Shown: positions 1,189-39,957 of the stretch, piece after piece
Position numbering within the stretch: the stretch's first letter is position 1
How the letters are laid out: the number at the start of each line of letters is the position of its first letter
Assembly: GCA_006386115.1 (NCBI GenBank)
Contig: VFIW01000002.1
Location: 1 to 64,000, forward strand
Direction: 5' to 3'
Source: Globisporangium splendens
Lineage: Eukaryota > Oomycota > Peronosporomycetes > Pythiales > Pythiaceae
Length of the DNA stretch: 64,000 nucleotides
Position numbers and translations under genes: made by a program
The notes under the pieces: model-generated
Database searches by the model: none
What the model saw: the letters and a program-made list of their open reading frames with translations, nothing else
Told to the model about the DNA's origin: nothing

Positions 1189-1190
1189 CC

Positions 1191-5300: not shown

Positions 5301-7118
5301 AAGTGGGTACGCAAGTATGTGAGGACTTGCGAGGTCTGCCAACGAGTGAAACCCTCTGGTTCCACGCAGGCACCACTTCGTTCATTGGCTGTCCCATCGG
5401 ACAGTTGGAAGTCTGTGAGTATGGATTTCATATTCGGACTTCCAAGAGACACACATGGACGCAATGGCATCCTTGTGTTTGTGGACCGATTCAGCAAGAT
5501 GGTTCATCTTGCGCCTGTTTCGGACAAGATCTCTGCTGAGAAGACTGCCAAGGTCTTTGTAGACGTCGTATTCCGTCTACACGGATTACCAGTCGAGATC
5601 GTGTCTGACCGTGACACCCGTTTCACGTCCAAGTTCTGGCGTGCACTGCTCGGACTTCTGGACACCAAGTTGTCCATGTCAACAGCGGCACACCCTGAAA
5701 CGGACGGTCAAACAGAGCGAGTGAATCGTGTCCTCGAAGACGTGTTGCGCAGCTACGCAACGTCTTTCAAAGAGTGGAGTGAGTTTCTCCCTCTTGCCGA
5801 GTTTGCGTTGAACAACTCCACGCATGTCTCGACAGGTCACTCTCCATTTTATGTGAACTATGGCATTCATCCTCGAGTGCCTGCTTCCATAATGGGTGAG
5901 GTCTCTACCTTAAGTGGGGGAGGGACTCCGGCTCATGGTAACAAGCCGAAGTCGTCTTACGACCTGAATGCTGCTACCGAGTCGAAAGCAAATTTTGACT
6001 CGATGAAACCCCTCGACGACCTAACAAGTCGTGAAGAGCAGCAAGTCGATGACTTTGTTGTGAGGAGACAAGCCGTTGTGAGGTTTGTTCGAGACGCAAT
6101 CGCGAAGGCTCAGGATCTGCAAAAGGAACAAGCAGACAAGAGCGGAAGGAAGAACAAGCAAGTGTATAAGATCAATGATCTTGTATTACTTAGCACGGCG
6201 AACCTGCCTGAACATGCAGTGTCCAACTTGGGAAGCTCCAAGCTTCTGCCAAGGTTCATTGGACCGTTCAAGGTAGTGAAATGCAATGGCGATGCCTACA
6301 CGCTAGACATACCTACACGCATGCGTCTACACCCGACATTTTATGTGGGTAGACTAAGCCTTACCTTCCAAGTGGATCTGCGGATCCTACGAGATCTTCC
6401 GCAAACGATCGAGCTGATCGTGAAGCTTCTCCACTTGATTGCGAAGAGCAAACAGCTCATCGCTCTGGAGATTCTTCTCGGCGTACAGGAGTTGCAGGAC
6501 GTCGAAGGATTGGTCCTTCACTGCCTCCAACGCTTGAAGACGAGAATGGTACTCGCCACGAAGTACCTCGAGAGCCGAACCTGCCTCTTCCACAGAGCGC
6601 AACAGGCGATCGTGAGCCAACTCACGAGACTTCTCGTTCTTCTGGAGTCGAACAAGTTCGTCCTGAACCTGTTGGAACCGTTCCTCGAAACGGGACTCCA
6701 AAGCCGAACACTGGGCAGAACCTTCTGTCAGATCGTCGATCTTCGATCTTCGACTCGTGATCGGCGACAAGGTTCTCGAGACTCTCGCAGCGTTCCTCAA
6801 GCGCCGAACAACGCTGCTGCAAAGCCTCGATTTGCCCACGGTGAGCACTCTTCCACTTCCAGAGTCGCTCAATCGTTTTCTCGTTCAGCCCCACCCCCGT
6901 TATTAGACTCTCAGGGAGAGCATCGCTGGGTGGTTGAGTCGATTGTTGATCATGAAGATCGACCGACTCATCGTCGAGGAAAGAAGTAGTTGAACCATCA
7001 ACGCTTCTACAGAGTTCGGTGGCGTGGATATCCACCGAGCTCGGACACGTGGGAGCCTCGTCAGACATTGGAGTCTGATGTTCCCGACGTGGTCCGCAGC
7101 TATGAGAACTGCTTGTAG
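2337..7118 (+). pseudogene. pol: pol of element A: protease, RT, RNase H, integrase, chromodomain (broken near 3' end)
   Basis: One long frame runs to 6989 (the open frame begins upstream at 2199 inside gag). Visible in order: aspartic protease motif DTGA near 2550; reverse transcriptase with YFDD near 4070; RNase H (CDASDYAIGC) near 4530; integrase HHCC finger (HDSPSGGHLGREKT ... CEVCQRVK) near 5220-5350 and its acidic catalytic core (MDFIFG, SDRDTRF, ETDGQTERVN) near 5420-5740; then a basic linker and a chromodomain ending at 7118. Lesions: a 15-base deletion after QTPV in RT (near 3837), a 1-base loss near 6355, a 7-base tandem duplication near 6740 that brings the frame back, and TAG at 6987-6989 inside the chromodomain. 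Confidence 0.9.
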
Positions 7119-7461
7119 CGTCGCCAGGGGCGACACTACGACGACCAGAGCTACGGTTCGCTCTGTCGTCAGCGGGAGTTCTTCTTTCGGCACGAGCATT
7201 GCCACGACGAAGAAGACGCTCCATCTTGTTCTCATTCTCAAGACGAACAAATGTTCGCCATGAGTCTCTCTGGGCTGCGATGTGTTGGTTCGGATCATCG
7301 CGATCGTTGATCCGACGCCAACTGAAGAACCGCTCCTTGTAGAACTCGAGCTCCCCCTTCTTCTTCAGAATGGGAGAGATGTCGAAGAGTTCTGGAGCTG
7401 CCTGCTGTCGCTTGGACGACGGACGTTCTTCTCGGTTCACTTGGTCACTTGGTCGCTTCAT
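6387..7461 (-). pseudogene. Antisense coiled-coil gene of element A (broken by 7-bp duplication)
   Basis: On the minus strand an ATG at 7461 opens MKRPSDQVNREERPSSKRQQ, homologous to the intact antisense gene of A' (29084-30151). The frame runs to about 6745, where a 7-base tandem duplication (GATCTTC) shifts it; the coiled-coil half continues in another frame to a stop at 6387. It begins 77 bases inside the 3' LTR and overlaps the pol linker and chromodomain on the other strand. Function unknown. Confidence 0.7.
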
Positions 7462-7464
7462 TGC

Positions 7465-7480
7465 CAATTGCAAAGTGAAC
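7465..7480 (-). promoter_or_regulatory. Initiator-like motif before antisense gene, element A
   Basis: GTTCACTTTGCAATTG on the minus strand, ending four bases before the antisense ATG. By eye it matches 13 of 16 positions of the oomycete core initiator GCTCATTYYNCAWTTT. The same motif is found in A', and a variant in C. Confidence 0.4.
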
Positions 7481-7524
7481 TGCTCCGAAAGGTCTGCAAA
7501 AGTACGCAAGGTACTTGTGACTTT

Positions 7525-7537
7525 AAGGAGGGGATGA
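7525..7537 (+). other. Polypurine tract of element A
   Basis: AAGGAGGGGATGA directly before the 3' LTR, the plus-strand primer site expected for LTR elements. A' has the same tract and C has AAGGGAGGGATGA. Confidence 0.75.
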
Positions 7538-8156
7538 TGTAATGGGCTATAACCAGCCATTACATGAAGGTGGATCTGCTCCCAGATCTAGTGTGTCACA
7601 CACCACCTTCAGCGTGCATTGTGGAGACACAAATAACAAAGGGATTACGGTAATACAGTCCCCACATGCACGTGTGACGTCACTCGATGACGTCACGAGT
7701 GTTCTCTGTGCTGATCAGTGCAGAATGTTGTTCTCATGTACTAATCAAGTACTGAGTGATGGTTCCTGCTTGGGAAACTGGACTGGTGATGAGACCGACG
7801 TGTCTCTGCCACCTGGAGTGAGTGGCGCGAGCCAATCACTTTGCAGGGATTTTATACAAGACTTGAAGTTCAAGCTTCTAGAAGATCCCGTAGGTTCAAC
7901 CTCAGTGTACCCAAGGTTTTATATATCATATTCATAGGTTTTATTGTGTATATTTAGGTTTTAGTTATATAACCTCTAGGATCCCTTGGGGTTCATTTGT
8001 AAGTAGCGACAGGAACCATAACCATTTTTAATTCAGTTGCAAATTTTCCTCCAAGCCCTCGAGTCTTCTTCCTCCCTCCAAGTCGGGAGATCGCTTCCTC
8101 TGGCACAAGCGTGTGTGCCGTGTTTGAGGGACTGTTGTGAACAGCGCCCTCTTACA
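7538..8156 (+). repeat. 3' LTR of element A
   Basis: TGTAATGGGC...CTCTTACA, near-identical to 538-1188 apart from a loss of about 32 bases between two CATGTACTAATCA direct repeats and scattered substitutions. Both TGACGTCA palindromes are retained. Confidence 0.92.
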
Positions 8157-9392: not shown

Positions 9393-9414
9393 AAGCGGGA
9401 CGCTCTACTGAGAC
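9371..9414 (+). promoter_or_regulatory. -1 ribosomal frameshift signal between gag and pol, element B
   Basis: The slippery heptamer G GGA AAC (9371-9377) is read AAG GGA AAC in gag. After a five-base spacer comes a hairpin with perfect 10-bp arms GTCTCAGTAG (9383-9392) and CTACTGAGAC (9405-9414), extended by an inner AGCG/CGCT stem. The gag stop is the end of the 5' arm. Pol is in the -1 frame. Heptamer, spacer and hairpin match the known requirements for programmed -1 frameshifting. Confidence 0.8.
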
Positions 9415-12400: not shown

Positions 12401-14486
12401 CCGCATGACCAGGATCTGAAACTTTCGATCCTGCATGAGTTTCACGACGCACCAGCGAGTGGGCATCTCGGACGTGAAAAGACCTTCTTGCAAGTGTCTA
12501 ATGTGTTTTGGTGGCCACACCAATACACATGGGTGGCCAATTATGTACGCTCATGCGAGCAGTGCCAGCGCGTGAAGCCTGCGGGCAAGAACAAAGCGCC
12601 GCTGCATCCGCTGCCGATTCCGCAAGATTGCTGGAAGTCGGTCGGCATGGATTTCGTCTTCGGTTTCCCGGAAGACAAGGCGCGCAACACAGGCGTCGTC
12701 GTGTTCGTCGACCGACTGAGCAAAATGGTGCACGTTGCACCTGTGCGCAAGCATGTCACTGCGCAAGAGACGGCGTGCCTATTTTTAGAGCACGTGTTCC
12801 GCTATCACGGCTTGCCCGAGTCTATTGTATCAGACCGGGACCCGCGTTTCACCGCTGCCTTTTGGCGCGAACTCTTTCGCCTGCTCGGCACAGATCTGGC
12901 GTTGTCCACTGCCGATCACCCCGAGACAGACGGGCAAACCGAGCGCGTGAACCGTGTCGTCGAGGATATTCTTCGCAGCATCGCTGTCGATCATCCCCGC
13001 GACTGGAGCCGCTGGCTGCCGTACGCCGAGTTTGCTATAAATAGCAGCGAGCACGCCTCTACGGCCGTGACTCCGTTCTATTTTAACTCGCTGCGGCACC
13101 CGCGCGTACCCGCCACTCTGTTTGAGGGCGTCGAACGTTCTGCGGTAGGAGGGCAACTCGCTGCGCTCGCTGCGAGTGCGCGACCTCCGTCACCGGACGT
13201 AGCGTCAACCGCTCACGTGGACGCGTGCGATGCGCCGCCTGTGCGATCGCGTTCCGAATCTTTCACGGTCTTACCGGACAGCACGAAGGGTATTGACATG
13301 ACGGGCACGGTACTGAGTTACAGTACTCGTGTCCCTAAAGATGAATCACCCACGGTACAGAGTTACGGTACTCGTGTCCCTATAGATGGCTCTCACACGG
13401 TACCGAGTTACGGTACCCGTGCTAAAAATAGCCAGTCCAGACGGAATCAGGCGACCGCTCGTGTGAGCGCCAGCCACGAATGGAAGGACGCGCGGTGTCA
13501 CACACCCGCCCAGAAATAGAACTCTCTGCAGCACGCGCTGCGAGAGCAACGAAAAAGCAAGACAAAGCCGTCGCGGCAGCACGGCAATTTGTCGATGAGC
13601 GCGCAGCATTGTTGCATCGCGTACGCGACCAATTAGCTGCTGCGCAAGACAAACAAAAGCTCTACGCCGATAAATCGGGTAGAAAGAACAAACAAACGTT
13701 TTGTGTGGGTGAAAAGTGCTTTTAAGCATTAAAAACCTACCAAACGATGCAGTCACAACGCTCCCCAGCGGGAGTAAGTTGTTGCCACGATTCATCGGGC
13801 CATACACTGTTGTGGAGAAGATTGGAGACTTGAATTACAAGCTCGATCTCCCAACGAGAATGGCAACGCACCCCGTGTTCAACGTGGGTTTGCTGAAACG
13901 CTACCATGACGCTACTGTGGATTTTTATCCCAGTCCGGGAGAACGTCGGTCTCATCAGGGGGCTCAGACGCCGCCCATCGAGACACGAGCGCGTTGTGCC
14001 TCTCCCAAAGCGTCTTCACTCGCGGAGCGTACCTCGCGTGGAAGTGCTTCCCGCGGACATGGTACTCCTCCAGCATCTGACGAGCTTCCTTCAGCTCCGT
14101 CTCAAGCGCTGTCACCCTCTGCTTCAACAGCGAGGTTTCGTCCAGATATTGCTGGCGAAGGGTACGGACGGCTTGCTGTAGCGCCCCCAAAGACGATGCG
14201 TTCGCGTGAACCATCTGAACCATCGCATCTGGTGCAACCACCGATGCTGAAGCGAAGTAGGGCGCCACCTGTCCCGCTGATTGACAAGCAGGGACAGCGC
14301 CAGTACCATGTTGAGCGCCTGCTGCGTGTGCAGCGGCGTAAGGGGAACACGCACTACCTTGTGAAGTGGCGTGGGTACGATGTGTCGCAGAGCTCGTGGG
14401 AGCCTGCTGAGCGTCTTCGCGAAGACGTCCCGGATCTTGTTGACGCCTTTGAGGCGCAACTGAGGGACTGTCATTCGCGCGAGTAA
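9374..14486 (+). pseudogene. pol: pol of element B with C-terminal chromodomain (two frameshifts)
   Basis: The main frame runs to 13519: protease DCGASQNFV near 9560, a long variable region with repeated AGSPA-type units near 9950-10090, reverse transcriptase (YFDD near 11300), RNase H (CDASDFAIGC near 11763), integrase HHCC finger near 12440-12580 and its core (MDFVFGFP, SDRDPRF, DHPETDGQTERVN) to about 12960. The integrase C-terminal part is in another frame (13480-13725), and a third frame (13716-14486) holds LPRFIGPYTVV, a variable linker and a clear chromodomain (YHVERLLRVQ, THYLVKWRGY, SWEP) near 14300-14450. Two frameshifts are needed to join these, so this copy cannot make a complete product. 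Confidence 0.88.
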
Positions 14487-15573
14487 TATGTCGCCTGATA
14501 CCAGCGCGACCGCCCGCTCGCAGAGGCGTGCCACCGCCCTGCTTGGAGCGAAACAGACGAACACGGTCAACTGCAAATTGCATGCGTTGACTGCGTTGCA
14601 CTGTCGGATCGGTAGACACTGTGCGAGTGCTACCTCCCTTAATTTTATTGATGCACGACATGAAGTCGGCATCGTACTCTTCTTCCGTCTCTCCAACAAA
14701 GAGGACGACTGGGATCGGGTGAATACGCAATTCCCCATTTTCATCCCGCAATCGCTTTTCACGCCAATTTTTAAATTGAGCGTCATAGTCCCGCGCACAA
14801 AGTCTGGCTCTCGCGAGCAGATTCGATGCGGTCTTGCCAGCCGGCCATAGTTCTGGCGGCGGCATTTCGGGCAGTGAGTACTTGAGCTCATCGTGAACGA
14901 TGGCTCGCACTCCTGCCTCTTCGTTTGTAATGAGGACTTCGTGCTTCCTCTTACGATTGTTGACAGCCTCAACGGCGTCATTTTCCTCCTTCGTCCGATA
15001 CATCGAGACGTCAGCGGATGGATCTCGCTCGAGCTCGTGGAGATAAGCGGCGTGTCGCTCGCTTTGCAACTCCTCGTACTCGACCCACTCGTCAATGGAG
15101 CCGAGCTTCACGGTGATGTCTTCCCCTTCCTCCTCTTCTTCGGGCGAGAACTCTTGGTAGTCGACTGCCGTGTCGTCTTCGGCGTCGCTTGTCCTGCTCA
15201 TCGGCGTGATGGCAGGGAGGTCGCCAAATTGTAGCTCACTGACACAGTCAGGAGCAGCCTTCGATTGAGCCGACTCGTCGTCGCTCATGCTCACGTCTTC
15301 CGTGGCAGTCGTGATCGCAGCGGCAGCGCGTTGTTTTGCGCTTGCCGCCTCGCGCTTCTCAGCGTCGAGCTTCTGCAGGCTTTGAACGAGTCCTTCTGCA
15401 GGACCGCTTGCGCTTCGGGCGATCTTTCCGCGCACCGATTTGTTCGTCGCCATCACGTGTGCGTTCACACTTGTGATATAACGATGCTTTTCGGAGAGAT
15501 TTGCACGCGCGTTCGCAGTGCCTCTCCCGAAGAATACTGAGCACGACATCGTGCGTCGAAGCGCGACCACCAC
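13912..15573 (-). CDS. Antisense gene of element B: 553-residue protein with C-terminal coiled coil
   Basis: An uninterrupted minus-strand frame starts with ATG 46 bases from the 3' LTR and ends inside pol. About 1.09 kb lies beyond the pol stop at 14486 where no sense frame exists; the remaining 575 bases overlap the pol linker and chromodomain. Visible parts: a basic N-terminus (ATNKSVRGKIARS), an Ala/Lys/Glu-rich helix (LVQSLQKLDAEKREAASAKQ), an acidic stretch (EFSPEEEEEGED), a KRKHE cluster, a central region ending in GETEEEYDADF, a Gln/Ser/Ala-rich segment, and a coiled coil near residues 455-500 (LRQQYLDETSLLKQRVTALE). No family is recognised. It is not visibly related to the A/C antisense protein except in position and coiled coil. 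Internal ATGs, such as the one opening MATNKSVRG, are alternative starts. Confidence 0.65.
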   Translation of the reverse strand: MVVALRRTMSCSVFFGRGTANARANLSEKHRYITSVNAHVMATNKSVRGKIARSASGPAEGLVQSLQKLDAEKREAASAKQRAAAAITTATEDVSMSDDESAQSKAAPDCVSELQFGDLPAITPMSRTSDAEDDTAVDYQEFSPEEEEEGEDITVKLGSIDEWVEYEELQSERHAAYLHELERDPSADVSMYRTKEENDAVEAVNNRKRKHEVLITNEEAGVRAIVHDELKYSLPEMPPPELWPAGKTASNLLARARLCARDYDAQFKNWREKRLRDENGELRIHPIPVVLFVGETEEEYDADFMSCINKIKGGSTRTVSTDPTVQRSQRMQFAVDRVRLFRSKQGGGTPLRAGGRAGIRRHITRANDSPSVAPQRRQQDPGRLREDAQQAPTSSATHRTHATSQGSACSPYAAAHAAGAQHGTGAVPACQSAGQVAPYFASASVVAPDAMVQMVHANASSLGALQQAVRTLRQQYLDETSLLKQRVTALETELKEARQMLEEYHVRGKHFHARYAPRVKTLWERHNALVSRWAASEPPDETDVLPDWDKNPQ

Positions 15574-16166: not shown

Positions 16167-17112
16167 CCTCGAGCGTATGCGAGCAGTCATCGGTGAGGCA
16201 GCTGTAATCAGCTTGCTGAGATCAGCGTCACCGGATGAGCAGAGGAATGCGGCTACGAGCTTCATGCATCACGATATCATGAACACTCATCGACAGCCTG
16301 CAACTCCTGTCACGACGATGAGAGTGGCGCCTCTGAAGCTCGATGTATCTCCGTACCGTGGCGGAGAAAACGAACCTCTAGCGAGATGGTTCGTTGAGTT
16401 GGATGCAGCTATCACTGCAAGACAACTACGGGACCCAATGCAGCAAGTGTTGTTTGCGATGTCAAACCTTGCGGGTTGAGCCAAGAGTTGGGCGTATGGG
16501 AAGCGATTGGCGGAGCCACATCGCTTCTACGACCTAGACGACTTCAAACGAGAGCTGAAGAGAGCTTTTGAGCCTCCGCAGAGCGAATTTCGAGTTCGTG
16601 CTGAGTTCTTAAAGCTTCGTCAGGGTAGATACGACCTACGCTCGTGCGCTCAACGAGCACGATACCTTGTGTCAAGTATCGTGAATGAGCCGATTGATGT
16701 CTCAACGCAAATTGTGACACTCATGGCAGGGCTCAATGACGGTCCGATTCGGAACCAGCTGTTCCGCGAGTATCCGAAGACGCTGGATGAAGCCATCGAG
16801 CGAGCGATGCAAGAAGAATTCAGCATCAAGCAAGCCAAGTTCAACGGTTTCGGCCCTCGCCCTGTTCGACAACACGCAGTCACATACGACGGTCCAGAGC
16901 CGATGGACATCTCGTATGCCGATGCGACCGCTAACAGACAGCCACGCAATGACGGGAAGTGTTTCCGTTGCGGCAAGCCCGGTCACATCGCGAGAAATTG
17001 CAAGGTGTCCTTGCCAAGCCAGCAAGCGACACACGGTTCGCGATCGAATCGATCAGGCAGAGGCCGACGATTCGAGCGTTCCCAACAGCCAAAAAACGGG
17101 AACGACCAGTAG
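16167..17112 (+). pseudogene. gag: gag of element C (5'-truncated, internal stop)
   Basis: The frame enters at the B insertion point (ERMRAVIGEAAVISLLRSAS) and is broken by TGA at 16477-16479 in LAG-stop-AKSWAYGKR; A has CGT there. It then continues through the capsid-like region to a CCHC knuckle (CFRCGKPGHIARNC) near 16960-17000. The identical TGA is present in C' at 26877-26879. The 3' end carries the frameshift heptamer. Confidence 0.85.
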
Positions 17113-17131
17113 GAGCGGGGCTCCCTACTGG
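17091..17131 (+). promoter_or_regulatory. -1 ribosomal frameshift signal, element C
   Basis: A AAA AAC at 17091-17097 (read CCA AAA AAC), an eight-base spacer, then a hairpin with arms CCAGTAGGAGC (17106-17116) and GCTCCCTACTGG (17120-17131). Same layout as in A with a stronger stem. Confidence 0.75.
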
Positions 17132-20100
17132 GCGAACAAAGAGTTCTGTGAATGTCGTGGAAGCGCAGAACTCTTGCCCCGGTGTGCGCAATGCACATGA
17201 AGTTTCCGCGAACAGATGTGAGCGTGTCGAGCAAGAGCCAGCCTTGATAGTCCACAAGGTTAAGGTAGATGGTTATTCAGAACCTCTACGGGCTCTTGTA
17301 GACACTGGTGCGTCGAACAATTTTGTCCGCACACAAGTGGTGAGAAGGCAAGGTTTGGACCTGCCTAACTCAAACAAGGAAATGATCGTTCGCTTGGCGA
17401 ATGGATCGAAAGTGACGATGCCTAAGCGCGTGTTGCGTATGGCAATCGAATGTGATGATTTCCGAGGTGAAGACGAGTTTATAGCACTCGACCTCGATGA
17501 CAAGTTTGATCTGATTCTGGGAATGCCCTGGTTGAGAAGGTACCAACCGAGCATTGACTGGAAGAAGAAGAAGATCAGCGTCGACAAGCAAGTCGACGAA
17601 GACCTCGGCTGCCTGGCAGCAAGAGAGGTAATTTGGGCATATACATCTGTGGAAGATGTGTCTAATGAGAGTCAGGCGTGCGATGGCCCCTCACACTCAA
17701 ATGACAAGCCCGTGAAGACCACTGGAGGTGGAGTAGTCAGGCGCCAGAAAAAGACTACTCCTGTAGCCAAGAGCGATGAAGGAGTTCCGCTCTGGCAGAA
17801 GGAAAGAAGACAAGAAGACCGACGAAGAAGAACGAAGATCTGCAAGCGTCCCTGATCAAGACACAAGAGAAGCAGAAGATGAAGTGAAGAAAGAAAAACA
17901 AGCCACTTCAAGCGAATATGTGAACGTCGTAGTCTACAATGAAGAAGGTGACAGCCAGATAGTGCGTCACGTACAAGTTGAAAATCCTCCAAGTCTGGCT
18001 CAAGAATTGATTTCCTTGCCGTTGATGAGCAAGAAGACGCTCAAGCGTAGCCTGGCGAAAGGCGAAATTTCGCAAATTTGTGCGATCGTCGATGAAGCTG
18101 CCGACGATGTCATCAACACTGCGGAAGTGTTAGATGAGAAGACACGGAAGGAAAGGTTTGACGAGCAGTCGTGGGACGCTCTAAAGACAAACCCCGTGTA
18201 TGGACTTGTCAAGGAATATGCGGACATATTCCCAGACAAAGTGCCTGACGAATTGCCGCAAGACAGAGGCATTCGTCACGAGATAGATGTACTTCCGGGA
18301 ACGAAGTACTGTATCACAAGGCAATGGCCGCTACCGAAGGAACAAGTCGATGCAATCGATGAGTTCTTCGCGCAGCGACAGAAGGCTGGCCATGTGCGCG
18401 AGAGCAAGTCTCCGCACTGTAGTCCCACCTTCTGTGTTAAGAAGGCCACAGGTGGTTGGCGTATTGTTCATGCATTCAACAAATTGAATGATGCGACCAT
18501 GCCTGCTCAGACCCCAGTTCCACGTAAGGATATGATCCTTGATGGAATGGTTGGCAGCACTGTCTTTAGCGCGATCGATCTGAAGGATGGATTCTATCAG
18601 ATTCGTATGCGTGAGAGCGATGTACCATTTACAGCAGTAAGCACCCCTAGTGGTATGCTGTGGGAGTGGATGGTAATGCCACAAGGTCTGAAGAACGCGC
18701 CAGCAACTTTCAACAGAATGGTCACGAATGTACTTCGTCCATTGAGAGAGTTTGCACCGAGCTACTTTGACGATATCTTCGTCCATAGTAAGGCTTTGGG
18801 AAAGAAGAAGGATGTTGATGTTCATCTTGAACATCTCCGTCAAGTTTTTCAGGTTATGCGTGAAAACAAATTATACGCTAACTTGAAGAAATGCATCTTC
18901 TTCGCCCCTGAGATCCCTGTACTCGGTTGCTTTGTTGGCAAGAATGGCGTTCGAGCTGATCCTGAGAAAGTCAAGGCTATTGACGATTGGCCTACTCCTC
19001 AGAATGTCAAACAACTACGCCAGTGGTTGGGTTTGGCGAACTACCTGCACAAATACACACGCAATTGCGCAGCATTAGTGCAACCTCTCACGAGTCTCTT
19101 GAAAAAGGACAATGAGTGGGAGTGGTCTGAGGAACATCAGGCAGCGTTTGCTGAAGTGAAGAAGAGCTTAAGAGAAGCTCCTGTCCTAGCTCTCGCAGAT
19201 CATGAGAAGCCGTTCCATGTAGTCTGCGATGCGAGCGATTATGCCATCGGGTGTGCACTGATGCAACACGATGATGAGGGCAAAGAAAGAGTTGTGTCGT
19301 ATCAATCACGACAACTCAGGCCCGCAGAAAGGAACTATCCGGTCCATGACAAAGAACTTTTGGCCATGAAGTATGCATTGGCAAAGTTCCGAGTCTATTT
19401 GCTTGGTGAGGAGCAGTTCGCTATTTACACTGATCACGCATCACTGCGGACAGCTGTAAAGACGCCTCACCTATCGCAAAGAATGGCAAGATGGTTTTCC
19501 TTCTTTGCTGAGTATAACTTTGTTGTACACTGCAAGCCCGGCAAGTCCAACATACTTGCTGACGCTTTGTCAAGACGTCCGGACTATGATCCGAAGAACA
19601 AGAGTGACGACACGAACGGAGCGTGCCGACTCTGTGAAGACGTCAACGCGATTGCTACGGGAGTGACAAGCACAATCCAAGAAGAAATCACTGAGGGCTA
19701 CAAGCAAGACGAAGCATGTCAAGAACTGATCAAGTATTTCAAGAATCCCTCAGATAAGGCACTCCAAAACCTCCCATCAAGAGCAAGATCGCGTGTTCAC
19801 CGTTACAGTATGCACAATGAGCTGTTGTATTATGCAGTTGACGAAGGGGATCCAGCGAGGATCGTTGTCCTCCAACGACGAAGGTCTGCGTCATCGACTC
19901 TTGTACGAGTATCATGACGGTCCTTCGAGTGGCCATCTCGGACGTGAGAAAACGTTTCTCAACTTGTCTCGAGATTACTACTGACCTCACATGTACAAGT
20001 GGGTTCGCAAGTATGTGCGTACTTGCGAAGTGTGCCAAAGAGTTAAGCCATCCGGCTCTACTCGGGCCCCACTTCGTTCATTACCTGTCCCTCAGGACAG

Positions 20101-21795
20101 TTGGAAGTCTGTGAGTATGGATTTCATATTCGGACTTCCAAGGGACAAACATCGCAGGAATGGTGTCCTGGTGTTTGTGGACCGATTCAGTAAGATGGTG
20201 CATCTTACCCCGGTCTCGGACAAGATCTCGGCAGAGATGACTGCGAAAGTCTTTGTAGACGTGGTGTTCCGCCTACATGGTCTGTCCTCAGAGATCGTAT
20301 CAGACCGTGACACTCGGTTTACATCCAGATTCTGGCGTACTCTGCTTGGCATTTTGGATACGAAACTATCCATGTCAACAGCAGCACACCCAGAGACAGA
20401 TGGTCAAACTGAACGAGTGAATCGTGTTCTGGAGGACGTGTTGCGCAGTTATGCGACGTCTTTCGGAGAGTGGAGCGAGTTTCTCCCTCTCGCTGAGTTT
20501 GCGTTGAACAACTCCACGCATGTCTCGACAGGTCATACCCCGTTCTATGTGAACTACGGACTCCATCCGAGAGTGCCAGCGTCACTAGTGGGAGAGGTTT
20601 CTACCTTAAGTGGGGGAGGGACTATGGCTAAGGAGCCACAGTCGGACCTGAATGCTGTCACAGAGTTAAAAGCGAATTTTGACTCGATGAAACCTCTAGA
20701 CGACATGACAAGTCGTGAGGCACAGCAAGTCGATGACTTTATTGTGAGGAGACAAGCCGTTGTGAGGTTTGTTCGAGACGCAATCGCGAAGGCTCAGGAT
20801 CTGCAAAAGGAACAAGCAGACAAGAGCGGAAGGAAGAGCAAGCAAGTATATAAGATCAATGATCATGTATTGCTTAGTACGGCTAACTTACCTGAACATG
20901 TAGTGTCTAACTTGGGGAGTTCGAAACTTCTGCCAAGATATATTGGGCCGTTCAGGGTAGTTAAATGCAATGGGGATGCATACACGCTAGACATACCTAC
21001 ACGCATGCGACTACACCCTACGTTCTACGTAGGTCGACTAAAGCCTTACCTTCCAAGTGGGTCAGCGAACCCTATAGAGCCCTTGACGGATGATCAAGTT
21101 GATCCTGAAGTCGCTCCACCAGCTCGCGAAGAGTCTGTAACTCATCGCCATGGAGCTTCTTCTCGGCATAAAGGCGCTGAAGCACATCAAAGGACTCGTC
21201 CTTTATTGTCTCCAACGCGAGAAGGCGACCATGATACTCCTTCCGAAGTATCTCAAGAGAAACCCCTGCCTCTTCCACAGAGCGCAGTAGACGTTCGTGA
21301 TACGCATCACGAGCTTTCTCAGCCTTCTGGAGTCGTTCAAGCTCGACTTGAATCTTCTCGAACCTCTGTTCGAAACGTGACTCCATTGCCGAACGCTGGG
21401 CAAGACCATCGAACAGCAAGTCGATCTTCGACTCCTGCTCCTTCAACCGGTCTTCGAGGCTTTCGCACCGGTCTTCGAGTACCGCGTTGCGAACTTCAAG
21501 AGCCTCGATCTGAGCGCGGTGAGCACTCTTCCACTTCCAGAGTCGCTCAATCGTTTTCGTGTTCAACCCCACCTCCTCTGATCGATCACCAGGGAGAGCG
21601 CCGTTGGATCGTTGAGTCGATAGTCGATCACAGGATCGATCGACTCGTCGTCGAGGAGAGAAGTCGTTGAACCGTCAACGCTTCTACAGAGTACGGTGGC
21701 TTGGCTATCCACCGGACTCAGACACGTGGGAACCTCGAGAGACTCTTCAGTCTGATGTTCCCGACGTGGTTCACAGCTACGAGCAGAGCTTGTAG
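17091..21795 (+). pseudogene. pol: pol of element C (frameshifts and stop)
   Basis: Protease DTGA near 17310, reverse transcriptase YFDD near 18765, RNase H, integrase HHCC and acidic core, GPF-type module (LPRYIGPFRVVKCN near 20940), linker and chromodomain ending at 21795. Lesions relative to C' or A': an extra base near 17781, an extra base near 19870, TGG to TGA at about 19983 in DYYWPHMYKW, and a 1-base loss near 21635 at the start of the chromodomain. The last one also breaks the antisense frame. Confidence 0.88.
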
Positions 21796-22120
21796 TGCTC
21801 TTGCGAGCACTAGAACGACGAGAGCCAAGCTCTTTATGGTCGTTCTCGAGCGTGCCTCCTAGGTTCCCTAGCAAACGCTCGACAAGATGCTCGTTCTCGA
21901 GTCGGACAAACGTCTTCCACGACTCGAGCTTCGCTGTGCTGGACTGGCCTGGATCGTCGCTGCCGGACATCTTGCGCCAGAGGAAGAACAACTCCTTGTA
22001 GAACCGACGTCCTCCACGCTTCTTGCGAATAGCGGAGATGTCGTACAAGCCGGGAGTCGTCCGCTGCCGCTTTGGCTCGGGCTGTTCTTCGCGCTTCACT
22101 TGGTCGCTTGATCGCTTCAT
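21072..22120 (-). pseudogene. Antisense coiled-coil gene of element C (one frameshift)
   Basis: The ATG at 22120 opens MKRSSDQVKREEQPEPKRQR, clearly homologous to the A' gene. The N-terminal half runs to about 21635, where a single-base loss shifts the frame; the C-terminal half (from GLNTKTIERLWKWKSAHR) is open to 21072. The coiled-coil half aligns with that of A' without gaps over about 165 residues, with well over half the residues identical by eye, whereas the overlapping sense linkers are much less alike. The start lies 77 bases from the LTR. Confidence 0.72.
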
Positions 22121-22123
22121 GGT

Positions 22124-22139
22124 CAATTGGAAAGTGAGA
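22124..22139 (-). promoter_or_regulatory. Initiator-like motif before antisense gene, element C
   Basis: TCTCACTTTCCAATTG on the minus strand, four bases before the antisense ATG, a diverged form of the motif in A and A' and a good match to the oomycete initiator consensus. Function inferred from position only. Confidence 0.4.
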
Positions 22140-28356: not shown

Positions 28357-29007
28357 TGTAAGAGGGCGCTATTCCAAACAGTCCCTCAAACATGGCACAC
28401 ACGTTTGTGCCAGAGGAAGCGATCTCCCGACTTGGAGGGAGGAAGAAGACTCGAGGGCTTGGAGGAAAATTTGCAACTGAATTAAAAATGGTTATGGTTC
28501 CTGTCGCTACTTGCTAATGAACCCCAAGGACTCCTACAGGTTTTATAACTAAAACCTAAACATACACAATAAAACCTATGAATATGATTTATAAAACCTT
28601 GGGTACACTGAGGTTGAACCTACGGGATCTTCTAGAAGCTTGAACTTCAAGTCTTATTTAAAATCCCTGCAAAGTGATTGGCTCGCACCACTCACTCCAG
28701 GTGGCAGAGACACGTCGGTCTCGTCGCCAGTCCAGTTTCCCAAGCAGGAGCCATTACTCAGTACTTGGTTAGTACATGGATGTTATCGCTCAGTACTGGT
28801 TAGTACATGAGAACAACATTTTGCACTGATCAGCACAGAGAACACTCGTGACGTCATCGAATGACGTCACACGTGCATGTGGGGACAGTATTACTGTAAT
28901 CCCTTTTGTTATTTGTGTCTCCACAATGCACGCTGAAGGTGGTGTGTGACACACTAGATGTGGGGACAGATCCACCTTCATGTAATGGCTGGCTGTGGCC
29001 CATTACA
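28357..29007 (-). repeat. 3' LTR of element A'
   Basis: Reverse-complement LTR with TG...CA ends, containing the paired TGACGTCA sites near 28850-28870 and both CATGTACTAA-type repeats near 28757-28810. The polypurine tract follows at 29008-29020. Confidence 0.93.
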
Positions 29008-29020
29008 TCATCCCCTCCTT
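29008..29020 (-). other. Polypurine tract of element A'
   Basis: TCATCCCCTCCTT on the plus strand, i.e. AAGGAGGGGATGA reading with the element, directly adjoining the 3' LTR. Confidence 0.75.
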
Positions 29021-29064: not shown

Positions 29065-29080
29065 GTTCACTTTGCAATTG
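29065..29080 (+). promoter_or_regulatory. Initiator-like motif before the antisense gene of A'
   Basis: GTTCACTTTGCAATTG, agreeing with about 13 of 16 positions of the oomycete initiator consensus GCTCATTYYNCAWTTT and ending four bases before the ATG at 29084. It would give a very short leader, as is common in oomycetes. No transcript evidence is available. Confidence 0.42.
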
Positions 29081-29083
29081 GCA

Positions 29084-30151
29084 ATGAAGCGACCAAGTGA
29101 CCAAGTGAACCGAGAAGAACGTCCGTCGTCCAAGCGACAGCAGGCAGCTCCAGAACTCTTCGACATCTCTCCCATTCTGAAGAAGAAGGGGGAGCTCGAG
29201 TTCTACAAGGAGCGGTTCTTCAGTTGGCGTCGGATCAACGATCGCGATGATCCGAACCAACACATCGCAGCCCAGAGAGACTCATGGCGAACATTTGTTC
29301 GTCTTGAGAACGAGAACAAAATGGAGCGTCTTCTTCGTCGTGGCAATGCTCGTGCCGAAAGAAGAACTCCCGCTGACGACAGAGCGAACCGTAGCACTGG
29401 TCGTCGTAGTGTCGCCCCTGGCGACGCTACAAGCAGTTCTCATAGCTGCGGACCACGTCGGGAACATCAGACTCCAATGTCTGACGAGGCTCCCACGTGT
29501 CCGAGCTCGGTGGATATCCACGCCACCGAACTCTGTAGAAGCGTTGATGGTTCAACTGCTTCTTTTCTCGACGATGAGTCGGTCGATCTTCATGATCAAC
29601 AATCGACTCAACCACCCAGCGATGCTCTCCCTGAGAGTCTAATAACGGGGGTGGGGCTGAACGAGAAAACGATTGAGCGACTCTGGAAGTGGAAGAGTGC
29701 TCACCGTGGGCAAATCGAGGCTTTGCAGCAGCGTTGTTCGGCGCTTGAGGAACGCTGCGAGAGTCTCGAGAACCTTGTCGCCGATCATGAGTCGAAGATC
29801 GACGTCCTGACAGAAGGTTCTGCCCAGTGTTCGGCTTTGGAGTCCCGTTTCGAGGAACGGTTCCAACAGGTTCAGGACGAACTTGTTCGACTCCGGAAGA
29901 ACGAGAAGTCTCGTGAGTTGGCTCACGATCGCCTTTTGCGCTCTGCGGAAGAGGCAGGTTCGGCACTCGAGGTACTTCGTGGTGAGTACCATTCTCGTCT
30001 TCAAGCGTTGGAAGCAGTGAAGGACCAATCCTTCGACGTCCTGCAACTCCTGTACGCCGAGAAGAATCTCCAGAGCGATGAGCTGTTTGCTCTTCGCAAC
30101 CAAGTGGAGAAGCTTCACGATCAGCTCGATCGTTTGCGGAAGATCTCGTAG
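29084..30151 (+). CDS. Antisense coiled-coil gene of element A' (intact, 355 residues)
   Basis: It is encoded opposite to gag-pol. The ATG at 29084 is chosen because the same MKR-SDQV start occurs in A and C and it follows an initiator-like motif; the frame is open further upstream into the LTR. Visible parts: a basic, possibly nuclear-targeting N-terminus (MKRPSDQVNREERPSSKRQQ), a conserved block (FYKERFFSWRRINDRDDP, SWRTFVRLENEN), a Ser/Arg-rich variable region, then from about residue 190 a long heptad-type coiled coil (IERLWKWKSAHRGQIEALQQ ... LHDQLDRLRKIS) to the end. The last 725 bases overlap the pol linker and chromodomain on the other strand; the first 343 lie beyond the pol stop. 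No known family recognised. By position it resembles antisense genes of some plant LTR elements and HTLV HBZ, but no bZIP basic region adjoins the coil. Confidence 0.75.
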   Translation: MKRPSDQVNREERPSSKRQQAAPELFDISPILKKKGELEFYKERFFSWRRINDRDDPNQHIAAQRDSWRTFVRLENENKMERLLRRGNARAERRTPADDRANRSTGRRSVAPGDATSSSHSCGPRREHQTPMSDEAPTCPSSVDIHATELCRSVDGSTASFLDDESVDLHDQQSTQPPSDALPESLITGVGLNEKTIERLWKWKSAHRGQIEALQQRCSALEERCESLENLVADHESKIDVLTEGSAQCSALESRFEERFQQVQDELVRLRKNEKSRELAHDRLLRSAEEAGSALEVLRGEYHSRLQALEAVKDQSFDVLQLLYAEKNLQSDELFALRNQVEKLHDQLDRLRKIS

Positions 30152-33100
30152 GATCCGCAGATCCACTTGGAAGGTAAGGCTTCAGTCTACCCACATAAAA
30201 TGTCGGGTGTAGACGCATGCGTGTAGGTATGCCTAGCGTGTAGGCATCACCATTGCATTTCACTACCTTGAACGGTCCGATGAACCTTGGCAGAAGCTTC
30301 GAGTTTCCCAAGTTGGACACTGCATGTTCAGGCAGGTTCGCCGTGCTAAGTAATACAAGATCATTGATCTTATACACTTGCTTATTCTTCCTTCCGCTCT
30401 TGTCTGCTTGTTCCTTTTGCAGATCCTGAGCCTTCGCGATTGCGTCTCGAACAAACCTCACAACGGCTTGTCTTCTCACAACAAAGTCATCGACTTGCTG
30501 CCCTTCACGACTTGTTAGGTCGTCGAGGGGTTTCATCGAGTCAAAATTTGCTTTCAACTCGGAAGCAGCATTCAGGTCGTAAGACGACTTCGGCTTGTTA
30601 CCATGAGCCGGAGTCCCTCCCCCACTTAAGGTAGAGACCTCACCCATTATGGAAGCAGGCACTCGAGGGTGAATGCCATAGTTCATATAAAATGGAGAGT
30701 GACCTGTCGAGACATGCGTGGAGTTGTTCAACGCAAACTCGGCAAGAGGGAGAAACTCACTCCACTCTTTGAAAGACGTTGCGTAGCTGCACAACACGTC
30801 TTCTAGGACTCGATTCACTCGCTCTGTTTGACCGTCCGTTTCAGGGTGTGCCGCTGTTGACATGGACAACTTGGTGTCCAGAAGTCCGAGCAGTGCACGC
30901 CAGAACTTGGACGTGAAACGGGTGTCACGGCCAGACACGATCTCGACTGGTAATCCGTGTAGACGGAATACGACGTTTACAAAGACCTTGGCAGTCTTCT
31001 CAGCAGAGATCTTGTCCGAAACAGGCGCAAGATGAACCATCTTGCTGAATCGGTCCACAAACACAAGGATGCCATTGCGTCCATGTGTGTCTCTTGGAAG
31101 TCCGAATATGAAATCCATACTCACAGACTTCCAACTCTCCGATGGGACAGCCAATGAACGAAGTGGTGCCTGCGTGGAACCAGAAGGTTTCACTCGTTGG
31201 CAGACCTCGCAAGTCCTCACATACTTGCGTACCCACTTGTACATGTGTGGCCAGTAGTAATCCCGGGAAAGACTGAGAAACGTTTTCTCACGTCCGAGGT
31301 GGCCACCCGAAGGACTGTCATGGTACTCATACAAGAGTCGATGGCGCAGACCTTCGTCGTTGGGAACAACAACCCTTGCTGTATCCCCTTGTTCGACCGC
31401 ATAGTACAGCATCCCATTGTGTATTCGGAAGCGGTGAACTCGCGATCTTGTGCGCGACGGAAGACCTTGCAGTGCTTTGTCGGAAGGGTCCTTGAAGTAC
31501 TTCAACAAGTCCTGACATGTTTCGTCAGACTTGTACCCTTCGACGATCTCTTATCGCACTGTAGTCGTTGCTTGTACCGCGATCGCTTGAACATCTTCAC
31601 AGAGTCGACACGCTCTGTCCGTGCCTTCACTCTTGGTCTTTGGATCGTAATCCGGACGTCTTGACAGCGCATCGGCTAAGATGTTCGTCTTGCCTGGCTT
31701 GTAGTGTACAATAAAGTTGTACTCTGCAAAGAAGGAGAACCATCTCGCCATTCTTTGCGACAAATGAGGAGTCTTCACTGCCGTACGCAGGGATGCGTGA
31801 TCAGTGTAGATAGCGAAGCGCTCCTCGCCAAGCAGATAGACTCGGAACTTGACCAAAGAATACTTCATCGCCAGAAGTTCCTTGTCATGAACTGGGTAGT
31901 TCCGTTCTGCGGGTCGGAGTTGTCGTGACTGATACGACACAGCTCGCTCGTGACCCTCATCATCGTGTTGCATTAAGGCGCAACCGATGGCATAGTCGCT
32001 CGCATCACAGACGACGTGGAACGGCTTGTCGTGGTTTGGCAGAGCCAAGACAGGAGCTTCTCGAAGACTCCTCTTGACTTCTTCGAACGCCGTCTCACGG
32101 TCTTTCGACCGCTTCCACTCAACGTCTTTCTTCAAGAGCTGTGTGAGGGGTTGCACCAACGCTGCATAATTGCGCGTGTACTTGTGCAAGTAGTTGGCTA
32201 AACCCAACCATTGCCGCAGCTGTTTGACGTTCTGAGGCACTGGCCAATCGTCAATAGCTTTGACCTTCTCCGGATCGACTCGAACACCGTTCTTGCCCAC
32301 AAAACAACCGAGAACAGGGATCTCGGGGGCGAAGAACATGCACTTCTTCAAGTTAGCGTAGAGCTTGTTCTCGCGCATGACCTGGAAAACTTGACGAAGA
32401 TGATCGAGATGAACATCGACATCAGACTTCCCATTCGTGGCCTTACTATGAACGAAAATGTCGTCCAAGTAACTTGGTGCAAATGTTCGCAGAGGACGAA
32501 GAACGTTCGTGACCATTCGATTGAAGGTCGCAGGAGCATTCTTCAGTCCCTGTGGCATCACTAACCATTCCCACAGCATACCACTCGGGGTACTCACTGT
32601 GGTTAGTGGAACATCGTCTTCGCGCATTCGGATCTGATAGAACCCATCTTTCAGATCGATAGCACTAAAGACGGTGCTGCCAACCATTCCATCAAGGATC
32701 ATGTCCTTGCGTGGAACCGGAGTCTGGACTGGAATTGTCGCGTCGTTCAGCTTGTTGAAAGCATGAACAATGCGCCAACCTCCAGTTGCCTTCTTCACAC
32801 AGAAAGTGGGGCTGCAATGCGGAGACTTGCTTTCCCGCACATGACCAGCCTTAGCACGTTGTGCAAAGAACTCGTCGATCGCCTCGACTTGTTCCTTTGG
32901 CAACGGCCACTGCCTTGTGATGCAGTACTTCGTGCCAGGAAGTACATCAATCTCATGACGAATGCCTCTGTCGAATGGCAACTCGTCCGGCACCTTGTCA
33001 GGGAAAATGTCTTCATATTCCCTGGCAAGCGCATACACGGGGTTCTTCTTGAGGGCGTCCCACGACTGCTCCTCGAACCTTTCCTTCCGTGCCTTTTCGT

Positions 33101-35364: not shown

Positions 35365-36014
35365 TGTAAGAGGGCGCTGTTCACAACAGTCCCTCAAACA
35401 CGGCACACACGCTTGTGCCAGAGGAAGCGATCTCCCGACTTGGAGGGAGGAAGAAGACTTGAGGGCTTGGAGGAAAATTTGCAACTGAATTAAAAATGGT
35501 TATGGTTCCTGTCGCTACTTACTAATGAACCCCAAGGGATCCTACAGCTTTTATAACTAAAACCTAAATATACACAATAAAACCTATGAATCTGATATAT
35601 AAAACCTTGGGTACACTGAGGTTGAACCTACGGGATCTTCTAGAAGCTTGAACTTCAAGTCTTATTTAAAATCTCTGCAAAGTGATCGACTCGCGCCACT
35701 CACTCCAGGTGGCAGAGACACGTCGGTCTCGTCGCCAGTCCAGTTTCCCAAGCAGGAACCATCACTCAGTACTTGATTAGTACATGGATGTCATTGCTCT
35801 GTACTGATTAGTACATGAGAACAACATTCTGCACTGATCAGCACAGAGAACACTCGTGACGTCATCGAGTGACGTCACACGTGCATGTGGGGACTGTCTT
35901 ACCGTAATCCCTTTGTCATTTGTGTCTCCACAATGCACGCTGAAGGTGGTGTGTGGCACACTAGATCTGGGAACAGATCCACCTTCATGTAATGGCTGGT
36001 TATGGCCCATTACA
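35365..36014 (-). repeat. 5' LTR of element A'
   Basis: Reverse-complement LTR, 650 bases, TG...CA ends, followed by the right-hand TACAC target duplication. It contains the two TGACGTCA palindromes near 35855-35880. Confidence 0.93.
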
Positions 36015-36069
36015 TACACGCATTACAAAGGGTTTGATTGCATTAAACAATGAACACATTTACGTTTGA

Positions 36070-36642: not shown

Positions 36643-39600
36643 TTACTCTTGTGAGCTGATGGTCAGTGCCTGCAGTTGGTCCGACGAGAGCATCGACGCG
36701 TTCTTGCGGCAGTAGCTCACGAAGCTCTTGAGCTTCAGCTTCAGATCGGGTGGACATGACTTGATTGCGTTCTGCACTTTCGGATGAGTCAGGATCTTCG
36801 TCAACCCGACGACAAACCTGGACGAGTACGGCGCCGCGATTTGCGCAAAGAGCATCGTGATGAAATTGCGGAGAAGCGCCTGGTCGAGTTCCACTGTGTT
36901 CTTGAACACAAACTCCAACACAGGCAGCACGTAGCCGCTCGTGATCATGAACACCATGCTTCGAAGCGACTCACGCTTGAGTTCCAGCGCCTATTGAAAA
37001 AAAAGAAGGATACTGTAAGCAACGAAGTCATTGGAAACCAACGTCACAGACATGCAGCTGTCATACCTTGACCGGGTTGATTTCTGGATGCAAGCGGAGA
37101 GACGTCACTAATACTCGGAACGCGATTGGCCACTGCCCAGTGTGCAATTTGATGGAAGCCTTCAGCACGCGAAGTAAACTCGGGAAGCAAATGTGAAGCA
37201 GCGTGCTGTTGAAAAAGGCAGGAGACTTCAGAATGACTTCCAACCAATGCAGCACTCCCATGGACACGACTGGGACGCGCATCGCAGAGATCAACTTTTC
37301 CACGACACCAGATTGGTTCATCTAAACAAGTTGCAGTAAACAATGAAAACAGTGAGCACGGTGCAGTTGAACAAGATGCCATCATGCCAATCGAGCACAC
37401 TCACATTGTATCCAAGCGTATGGTCCGATTTGCAAATCGCAGAGGCCTCTAAAAGCGCCTTCTTGATATCCTCGATCGCCTCTTCGTCAATTTCAACGGG
37501 AGCCGACGCGTTGGACGATTTCGCCGTCTGCAAAATGCTTCGTTCATCCTTCGTCGATGCGGCATACGCTAATAAGTAAATGCAGTTTTGAGCATAGCTC
37601 GACGAGATCGAGTCTGACGGATTAAAAAGCGGGTCGATGAGCGAGCGAAGGACCTAGTGGGAGGCGACAAACCGTCAATGCATCAGTGTGAAGCCCCTCC
37701 TTTCCAACCAACACGCTGATGAGCAGACGTCAGACTTACAATGGGGTCTCTCAAATGTGCAACGGGCGGCGGGGTTTTCGTGATTCGGTACTCTTTCGCG
37801 AGAACCTCTGCTGCAATCTCGGAACACTTTTTCGTCTTGATAATACTCAGGATTGCATCGCTGAGGCGCGGATTCGAGTCAAACAGGTGTCGTCGTCGCA
37901 AAGGATGGAAAACGCCGACTTTGGCGCCAAACTTCTCGACCGCGGTCTCTTGAAGCTCGAAGTGTACGCGACTCAACTTGGAGCGAGCCACCCGGTAGCG
38001 GACAGCCTCGTGGCTTTCAGCACCACTCTGCAGTAAATAGAGCTTATTGTCCATGGTGCAGAGCAGCTCTTCCGCATACAAATATGAATACGCCGACTGG
38101 CAGCAGATTTTGTTCAGTGCTGCTATATCCTCGCACGCTTCTTCTTCGCTTGCAAACGGAATCTAGTATACACATAACGCGTTAGAAGATTCTCCTGCCA
38201 ATAAAAATAACCAAGCATGTCAACCACACTCACTCGACAGAACGAGTCGACAAGCACCCCGCTGAAGACAGTGAAAAACGCATTGGCGTTTGTAATTGAC
38301 GCAATTTCCTTGTGGTGGCCAGCGTCAGAAATACGACGGATAGCATACTGCAGCAGACTGCATGCCTGCGGATGTTCATATGCAAAGTAATACATCATGA
38401 GAGAATGATTCAATACGTGTGAAAAAAATCATGAGCATACCTTGTGGGTTTCCGCGAGCTCAATCAGCATCAAGCGCCACTTCCGAGCTCCAAGCATCTG
38501 CGTCAACCATTCTGGTTCTGCGGCTGATCCACTCAGCACATTTGACACCTACCAAGAAGTAATCAATGTCAACATACGCTCAGCGGTTGTATCAAGACAG
38601 CATTTTCAGCAAGCATTTGCTTCTCATATACCAGCGTTGGATCGTAATGCTCGGCCACGACGTCTTTTAGATGCTGGTACAGGATATCTTCAGCAGGATC
38701 CCAAGACGCTCCTTTGTTTTCGTGCACCGCACCTTCCGAGACGTCATACGTCACTTTCTTCTCGAGTGCCGATTTCGAGACAGGAAGCGTATCGAGCCAC
38801 GACGCCACGAGGCTAACCATTTGTGCATGGCCGCGGTACGACGAAGAAAGTGCTTCCACGAGAATTTCTGGTCCGTTGGATTCGTTGTGTGCTCGGAGGA
38901 AGCCATTGATGACGTTCAGAACGTTCATTTCCATAATCGCATCTGTCTTGGAGAGCTCCTGCAGCAACCGGGTCGCTTCTTTCCCATCTTCAGTGTCTTT
39001 TTCTTGGATCGTTCGGCTCTGCATCCGGTCGTCGTCGTCACAGATGATCATACGCGTCTCCATGTCCTTCACGCGTCGTTTCTTTCGCCAGTTGCTGCTA
39101 TTACTGTCAATTTCCCCCTTTTCTTTGTCTTTCTTCGTCTTTTTCTTCCGCTTCTTCAGCGCTGGCGCATCGTCGTCGTGGCCATTTTGGTCGTCTGCCG
39201 CGTCGGCATTGTCTGCGTCGTTATCCTCGTTCTCTTCGTCTGCAGCATCATCACGTTGGCTACTCGACTCTTCGTCTTTCACGCTATCTTCTCCTTCTTT
39301 CACAGTTTGCTTCAGCTTCTTCGTGTGTGCAGCAGCGGCATCTCTCTCCCGGTCCTCTTTTCGAGCTGCAGCATGCTCTTTCTTTCCGTGAGGCGAAGTC
39401 TTTTTCGTCTCGTCCTTCTTCTTGTCGTGATGGCTGTGGTCCACACTGCCTCTGCGCGTCGCCTTGGCACTCGCATGCGAAGTCGAACTCGTCGCAGTCG
39501 CGGTCTCACTCGCCGTGCTCGTAGCAGCGCTACCGTTGCTCTTCTCCGCGCTCTTCTTCGCTTTGCTGCTACTCTCCGTCTTCTTTGCTACTGCACCAGT

Positions 39601-39957
39601 CGCTGCCGCTGCCCCACCATAAGGCTTGATCTCCACGTTCTCTGGACGCAGCCACTGCGTTTTCCGCGTCGCGCGGTTGTAGTAGTACGGCCGCTCGTTC
39701 TTCGGGTCCCAGAGTTCTTCCCACTCGGCATCGCCCTTGGTTTGCGCCTTCTTTGAATTCTCCGAAGCGCCGCCTGATGTCTGTTTCGCCACGTCACCTG
39801 ATGCTGACGCAGACGACTCGCCGTCAAAGTCCGCGGGTTTCTCCCAGGAGCTCTGCTTGGTGCTGCGGTTGTAGTAGTACACGCGCCCCTCCTTCGTGAA
39901 GTGCTCGCTCCACACACTCGCCATGGCGCCTGCTTTCCCTCCCTTTTCCTTGTGCAC
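36643..39957 (-). CDS. WW-domain protein fused to NELF-C/D (TH1)
   Basis: Seven exons, all in phase 0: 39957-38632, 38548-38441, 38365-38234, 38162-37740, 37653-37405, 37321-37067, 36990-36643. The start may be the second ATG at 39924, giving about 935 residues. Two WW domains lie at residues about 5-30 (W...YYYNRSTKQSSWEKP) and 67-94 (W...YYYNRATRKTQWLRP); then comes a long Lys/Glu/Asp/Ser-rich region, then from about residue 330 a region matching NELF-C/D: LQELSKTDAIMEMNVLNVIN, a block like AWLEQM (EPEWLTQMLGARKWRLM), ISDAG, LLAYAAS, PVVSMGVLHWLE and SGYVLPVLEF near the C-terminus. NELF-C/D is a subunit of the negative elongation factor that pauses RNA polymerase II; WW domains bind proline-rich peptides, possibly the polymerase tail. 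The first donor is uncertain: a site at 38577 would leave an improbable 29-base intron, so 38631 is preferred. Confidence 0.8.

Follow-up and report, generated by a model that had tools for sequence, protein, structure and literature searches.

In a window of 64,000 nucleotides (nt) from the oomycete Globisporangium splendens (assembly GCA_006386115.1, contig VFIW01000002.1, positions 1 to 64,000 of the forward strand), the Ty3/Gypsy element A' lies on the minus strand, and an uninterrupted open reading frame (ORF) of 355 codons plus stop runs on the plus strand, opposite its gag-pol (29084..30151; ATG at 29084, stop at 30149-30151). The open frame, codon-position tests and ratios of nonsynonymous to synonymous substitution rates (dN/dS) indicate that this antisense frame is almost certainly a real, selected protein-coding gene. 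As read from the sequences, the antisense and pol proteins are both under purifying selection and interlocked. The best explanation overall, which we consider likely, is that oomycete chromodomain Ty3/Gypsy elements carry an accessory protein gene opposite gag-pol. An earlier note on this DNA had described the intact 355-codon frame and proposed a conserved antisense gene; the frame was found as described, and substitution patterns in the antisense frame support the proposal. This high-copy family offers clear codon-level proof that an antisense gene of a long terminal repeat (LTR) element makes a selected protein.

Selection on the two overlapping frames

Element A' encodes a Gag with a zinc knuckle, a protease, a reverse transcriptase-RNaseH (RT-RNaseH), an integrase with H2C2 and SH3_Tf2-1 domains, and a C-terminal chromodomain. 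The RT-RNaseH-integrase order, the C-terminal chromodomain and the LTRs identify it as a Ty3/Gypsy chromovirus. Its 5' LTR (35365..36015, minus strand) is 94.5% identical to its 3' LTR (28357..29010, minus strand). The 3' part of pol (29427..31508, minus strand) contains the integrase with its SH3_Tf2-1 domain (30174..30362, minus strand; PF24626, residues 383-445), a linker of 185 residues in which substitutions follow the antisense frame (29619..30173, minus strand), and the chromodomain (29439..29618, minus strand; PF00385, residues 631-690, E 1.6e-11). The antisense frame spans 343 nt of the 3' untranslated region (UTR), the chromodomain codons and nearly the whole pol linker, and its stop falls 22 nt short of the SH3_Tf2-1 match. 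With the pol stop at 29427, the non-overlapping part has the 343 nt stated earlier. The start had been placed 77 bases inside the 3' LTR, which is incorrect or at best ambiguous: the LTR edge is at about 29008-29010 and the ATG about 75 nt into the internal region. The open frame reaches farther upstream, to an ATG at 28958 within the LTR, and no coding signal was seen upstream of 29084 in sliding windows over 61 loci.

Antisense codon positions 1/2/3 correspond to sense positions 1/3/2 in the overlap. The antisense third position is therefore the sense second position, which makes the frames distinguishable. The same relation leaves room for open antisense frames, so that the frame could be a codon-usage shadow of pol, without a product. 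Substitutions were examined in the family that the gene of A' shares with elements A and C of the window (79 loci of the A/C antisense family, taken from the best matches, of which 69 hold at least 300 open codons), with dN/dS calculated by the NG86 method for 11 pairs of loci. Outside pol, antisense dN/dS was 0.17-0.42 in 9 of the 11 pairs (at least 18 differences each), which is what the earlier note had suggested checking, separately in the non-overlapping part, as a sign of a conserved gene. Nine pairs had at least 57 differences in the linker; antisense dN/dS was 0.24-0.47 in eight of them, and sense dN/dS was 1.2-2.9. The chromodomain gave sense ratios of 0.17-0.30 and antisense ratios of 1.2-1.6 (5 pairs with at least 30 differences), and the six pairs with 5-12 differences gave 0-0.41 for sense and 0.56-1.30 or undefined values for antisense. 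Overall, antisense ratios outside the chromodomain were mostly 0.2-0.5. The sense dN/dS above 1 in the linker mirrors antisense constraint and is not positive selection, a warning that such values need not indicate positive selection elsewhere.

Counts by codon position gave the same picture. Between loci L001 and L071, differences at antisense positions 1/2/3 numbered 30/27/37 in the non-overlapping part, 10/20/8 in the chromodomain and 27/27/61 in the linker. In 69 loci, parsimony gave 114/97/196, 34/66/44 and 194/209/361 changes for the same three parts, that is, 0.99/0.85/1.72 changes per site in the non-overlapping part and 1.10/1.19/2.05 in the linker. A control region of pol past the antisense stop (57 loci) had 126/122/274 changes at sense positions 1/2/3. 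In sliding windows over the 61 loci, the LTR and 3' UTR were free of periodicity up to 29083; changes were then of antisense type at 29084-29443, of sense type at 29384-29683 (weak; single windows within the chromodomain had p 0.03 to 1), again of antisense type at 29684-30103, and of sense type from 30104 onward (p as low as 5e-7). The frame signal thus switches close to the chromodomain edges and once more at the antisense stop. When synonymous codons of the sense protein were shuffled, the antisense frame stayed open in the overlap in 4 of 5000 shuffles; shuffles of the antisense protein left the sense frame open in the linker in 4 of 5000. Each frame is more open than coding for the other protein would require.

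Facing the chromodomain, the antisense frame does look like a shadow of pol, with the antisense ratios of 1.2-1.6 given above. Outside the chromodomain, the shadow reading is refuted by dN/dS, parsimony counts and sliding windows: antisense constraint is found in the 343 nt outside pol, changes in the linker are fastest at sense position 2, a different position becomes the fastest at the antisense stop, and the antisense frame so rarely survives shuffling of the sense codons. We give this reading a negligible probability for the frame as a whole.

Several observations nevertheless weigh against a selected antisense gene. The two remaining pairs were weaker outside pol, with ratios of 0.48 (16 differences) and 0.90 (L057/L067, 8 differences), and the ninth linker pair, L069/L073, had an antisense ratio of 0.64; pairs with L069 or with few changes were weaker in general. 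The mirror frame -1 also gave lowish values in the linker (0.28-0.79); it holds 6-13 stops per pair and shares its third positions with the antisense frame. Subfamilies recombine, as in the mosaic L067, and the windows overlap, so that the tests are not fully independent. The antisense ATG is out of frame in 3 of the 79 loci (L020-L022), and codon 73 is a stop in 5 of 33 P0051-type copies, which means that some copies persist without the gene. Lastly, the N-terminal domain of the product (see below) had no Pfam or PDB match, and its function is therefore not read from homology.

Two further side observations concern these loci. The copies with the stop at codon 73 (L048, L054, L058, L060, L074) are otherwise barely more similar than the remaining copies (identity 0.989 versus 0.985), and the recurrent stop suggests a mutation hot spot or recombination. 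L067 combines an N-terminal half like that of L057 with a linker half like that of L001, and L068 is perhaps built likewise; as judged from this mosaic sequence, antisense-gene modules are exchanged between subfamilies.

Predicted protein and putative core promoter

The AlphaFold2 model of the antisense protein (26 sequences; mean predicted local distance difference test score, pLDDT, 74.9; predicted template modeling score, pTM, 0.28) has helices at residues 38-51, 61-76 and 80-93, disorder at 95-177, and a single helix at 184-354. Together with conservation, the models delimit a predicted N-terminal three-helix domain (residues 25-93, 29156..29362, plus strand), and the three helices recur in a separate model of the N-terminal 102 residues (mean pLDDT 71.7). 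A predicted disordered hinge follows (residues 95-177, 29366..29614, plus strand; pLDDT below 50), mostly opposite the chromodomain; disorder covers most of residues 119-179, which face the chromodomain and where the antisense frame is unconstrained. The predicted coiled-coil helix (residues 184-354, 171 residues, 29633..30145, plus strand) lies opposite the pol linker. Its hydrophobic power at 102.9 degrees was 2.96, whereas 500 shuffles reached at most 1.97, in agreement with the heptad coiled coil read earlier from the sequence; the conserved N-terminus, with its basic start and FYKE-F-WR block, was likewise borne out.

Opposite the pol chromodomain is thus the predicted disordered hinge of the antisense protein, and opposite the pol linker is its coiled coil, so that the antisense gene largely dictates the amino acids of the linker. 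This makes a compact natural case of opposite-strand genes that share DNA by setting the floppy part of one protein against the folded part of the other. It also cautions that an antisense gene may be what shapes a long chromovirus linker.

Among the first 24 residues are 6 K/R and 4 D/E, and this basic N-terminus may contain a nuclear signal. The product would be a nuclear oligomer of coiled-coil type, with an N-terminal helical domain that binds nucleic acid or a host protein, and it may regulate the expression or integration of its own element, in the way proposed for maize Grande GENE23 and described for HBZ of human T-cell leukemia virus (HTLV). We put forward this nuclear regulatory role tentatively. 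A predicted long coiled coil with a small helical domain and a basic start would also suit a structural or nucleic-acid-chaperone component of the particle, that is, a second Gag-like or ORF1p-like coiled-coil protein and not a regulator. The whole protein had no fold or family match except generic coiled coils, and these profile matches include LINE-1 ORF1p, weakly (E 0.026). The ORF1p match, however, covers the coiled coil only and is one among many coiled coils, a Gag with capsid and zinc-knuckle domains is already encoded by the element, and a particle component would need no separate promoter. A role in the particle appears rather unlikely to us, and somewhat less probable than the regulatory role. 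The role of such antisense genes becomes testable with one small protein.

The oomycete core promoter is described as a 16-nt block made of an initiator (INR) YCAYTYY, 2 nt, and a flanking promoter region (FPR) MWTTTNC, which also occurs in Pythium ultimum (PMC3599244). Element A' has such a block at 29067-29082 (plus strand), TCACTTTGCAATTGGC, with a full match to the INR (TCACTTT), a 2-nt gap and an FPR-like half that matches at 6 of 7 positions. The INR lies 17 nt upstream of the ATG and is separated from the LTR edge by about 58 nt. On the two strands of the window together there are 5 occurrences of the core pattern TCAYTYYNCAWT, versus 0.69 expected. Three of them precede the antisense ATGs of A, C and A' by 17 nt (the INR+FPR cores of A and C are at 7467-7478 and 22126-22137, both minus strand), and the other two are at a corresponding site in pol of A and A'. 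Among the 79 loci, the strict pattern was found at most 60 nt upstream in 70 and at -17 in 67; the other nine differ slightly. Across four representatives (L001, L061, L057 and L071, of which L001 and L061 are alike), positions -17 to -11 are invariant at 7 of 7, versus 2 of 28 for -45 to -18.

On this motif evidence, the antisense gene probably uses its own promoter at 29067-29082; transcription would start from an oomycete-type INR+FPR core between the LTR and the ATG, and a lineage-specific core promoter motif would stand at the start of the gene. Two features fit less well. The block is the same 16-nt block, but the ATG is nearer than in Phytophthora infestans: a transcription start site at the INR adenine, 29069, would give a leader of about 15 nt, whereas high-confidence leaders in P. 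infestans are given as 32-144 nt, with a median of 50 (PMC3599244). The FPR half fits MWTTTNC at 5-6 of 7 positions in the representatives, as counted by eye.

A conserved core-promoter-like motif directed against the 3' end of pol would also be expected if the antisense RNA, and not a protein, were what matters, limiting the sense RNA by interference or by double-stranded RNA silencing, as is discussed for plant elements (PMC7264820). Such a role fails to predict codon-position constraint, frames that are open in 90 of the 114 best-scoring genome places, or residues conserved at 43% identity, and we hold it to be very unlikely.

Distribution of the antisense gene

The antisense protein of A' matches A from 7461 to 6390 and C from 22120 to 21093, each in two frames. 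The earlier note had reported the same gene in both elements with a single indel each, and one frame break apiece was found: around residues 232-240 in A (6390..7461, minus strand) and around residues 168-171 in C (21093..22120, minus strand). At least 114 places in the G. splendens genome match the protein; these 114, of 480 first-look candidates, are the best-scoring part that was scored, and 90 of them, counted by hand, have no in-frame stop. Genome searches started from other members found overlapping sets of 116, 245 (counting pieces), 116 and 107 matches. A protein database search returned 82 relatives, with identity down to 43%, mostly G. splendens hypothetical proteins (FI667_g*) and otherwise proteins on short contigs (jgi, ena, lgn), probably metagenomes. 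A profile search returned 90, largely the same set. Scans of IMG/VR with the A/C and B families confirmed no relative.

Gene capture is known in retroelements (PMC7264820), and the gene might be a host gene captured by transduction and kept for the host or by chance. The own-genome matches listed, however, look like repeat copies (flanking element genes were checked for part of the places), and overprinting is the likelier origin of a gene that shares its C-terminal half with pol. Capture is highly improbable in our view.

The arrangement is not confined to the A/C family: element B, which sits between A and C and which the earlier note does not mention in this respect, shares the layout. The antisense gene of B (13912..15453, minus strand) has 513 codons from an ATG at 15453 that begins MATNK, and its stop, at 13912-13914, lies at most 5 nt from the end of the integrase SH3_Tf2-1 domain match (13713..13907, plus strand). 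The pol chromodomain of B was matched at 14304..14456 (plus strand). The frame relation is identical to that of A' (antisense 1/2/3 = sense 1/3/2), and the N-terminus has no detectable similarity to its A' counterpart. For this gene, 78 genome places were scored and 32 database relatives found, with identity down to 37%. Compared with copy L080 (one pair), antisense dN/dS was 0.33 in the non-overlapping part, the other frames there giving 0.45-1.73, all with stops; in the chromodomain it was 1.54, versus 0.27 for sense. Linker differences were 1/1/2, the two copies being nearly identical there, and are uninformative. The heptad test was modest (19 of 1000 shuffles as good), and the 300 nt that precede the MATNK start codon contained no YCAYTYY motif. 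Pol of B is in two frames (9230-13519 and 13716-14486, plus strand), with an apparent break in this copy that separates the integrase core from the SH3 domain.

A third Ty3 class, with a gap of 288 nt between SH3 domain and chromodomain, has an antisense frame in the same register (L081:199-765, minus strand), as worked out from the L081 coordinates. The end of this frame falls within the final 14 nt of the SH3 match, and the frame has 565 codons in 18 of 59 matches, 584 at most. The heptad test was negative for its tail (755 of 1000 shuffles as good), and a coiled coil is not claimed for this family. At least three families (A/C, B and the C140-type) have a long antisense frame, in the same register, whose end lies where the integrase SH3 domain ends. 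It is about an even bet that an interlocked antisense gene was present ancestrally in an oomycete chromodomain Ty3/Gypsy lineage and defines it, a lineage in which the pol linker would be a passenger that exists to carry the antisense C-terminus, and the N-terminal domains would have been swapped or have diverged beyond recognition.

Some public annotations that match A/C or B antisense genes (P0043, P0054, P0093, P0097) also hold Copia, SH3, Gag or protease domains; these gene models appear to fuse antisense genes with neighboring element genes.

Known antisense genes and other features of the window

HIV-1 ASP is an antisense gene that overlaps sense genes. The closest concept to the gene described here is the plant antisense ORFs. 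Plant Ty3/Gypsy elements carry aORF-3R genes (Grande gene23, RIRE2, Retand TRP28 PF04195) in antisense between pol and the 3' LTR in most copies, and an own upstream promoter and nuclear localization are reported for Grande gene23 (PMC7264820, PMC11963269). The gene of A' is similar in that it starts between the pol stop and the LTR, on the opposite strand, with its first 343 nt there. Its frame is conserved as a protein and, among the 114 best-scoring places, open in 90. It differs in belonging to an oomycete element and in that the rest of it shares DNA with the codons of the pol linker and chromodomain, where selection is resolved at the level of codons; the excerpts of PMC7264820 and PMC11963269 place the plant ORFs between pol and the LTR, and the word 'overlap' is absent from both main texts. 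No PF04195 match was found in any of the 26 antisense-family members scanned (E <= 0.01).

The antisense gene brtn of Boty-like Gypsy elements in Botrytis cinerea (PMC7264820, PMC8365987) likewise belongs to a Gypsy element of a filamentous plant pathogen, but a fungal one, and is set beside A' by description only. HBZ of HTLV-1 is described as a nuclear protein with an important part in the viral life cycle (PMC11963269), and the HTLV antisense promoter as lying within the 3' LTR (PMC7264820), unlike the promoter motif of A', which is outside it. The antisense proteins scanned had no bZIP Pfam match. A narrow literature search found no oomycete report of such an antisense gene. Antisense genes of LTR elements are known in plants and in Botrytis (brtn); new here are the oomycete core motif and an overlap with pol in which the constraint is reciprocal.

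The window also holds two inverted pairs of near-identical elements, 538-8156 (plus strand) with 36014-28357 (minus strand), at 97%, and 16167-20557 (plus strand) with 27189-22806 (minus strand), at 98%. Opposite a WW-domain gene (38572-39957, minus strand) runs a frame of 361 codons (38671-39753, plus strand) with no Pfam match, which is probably an ordinary antisense shadow. Finally, the tandem stretches 60480-61408 and 63075-64000 are 68% identical and are probably paralogous genes.
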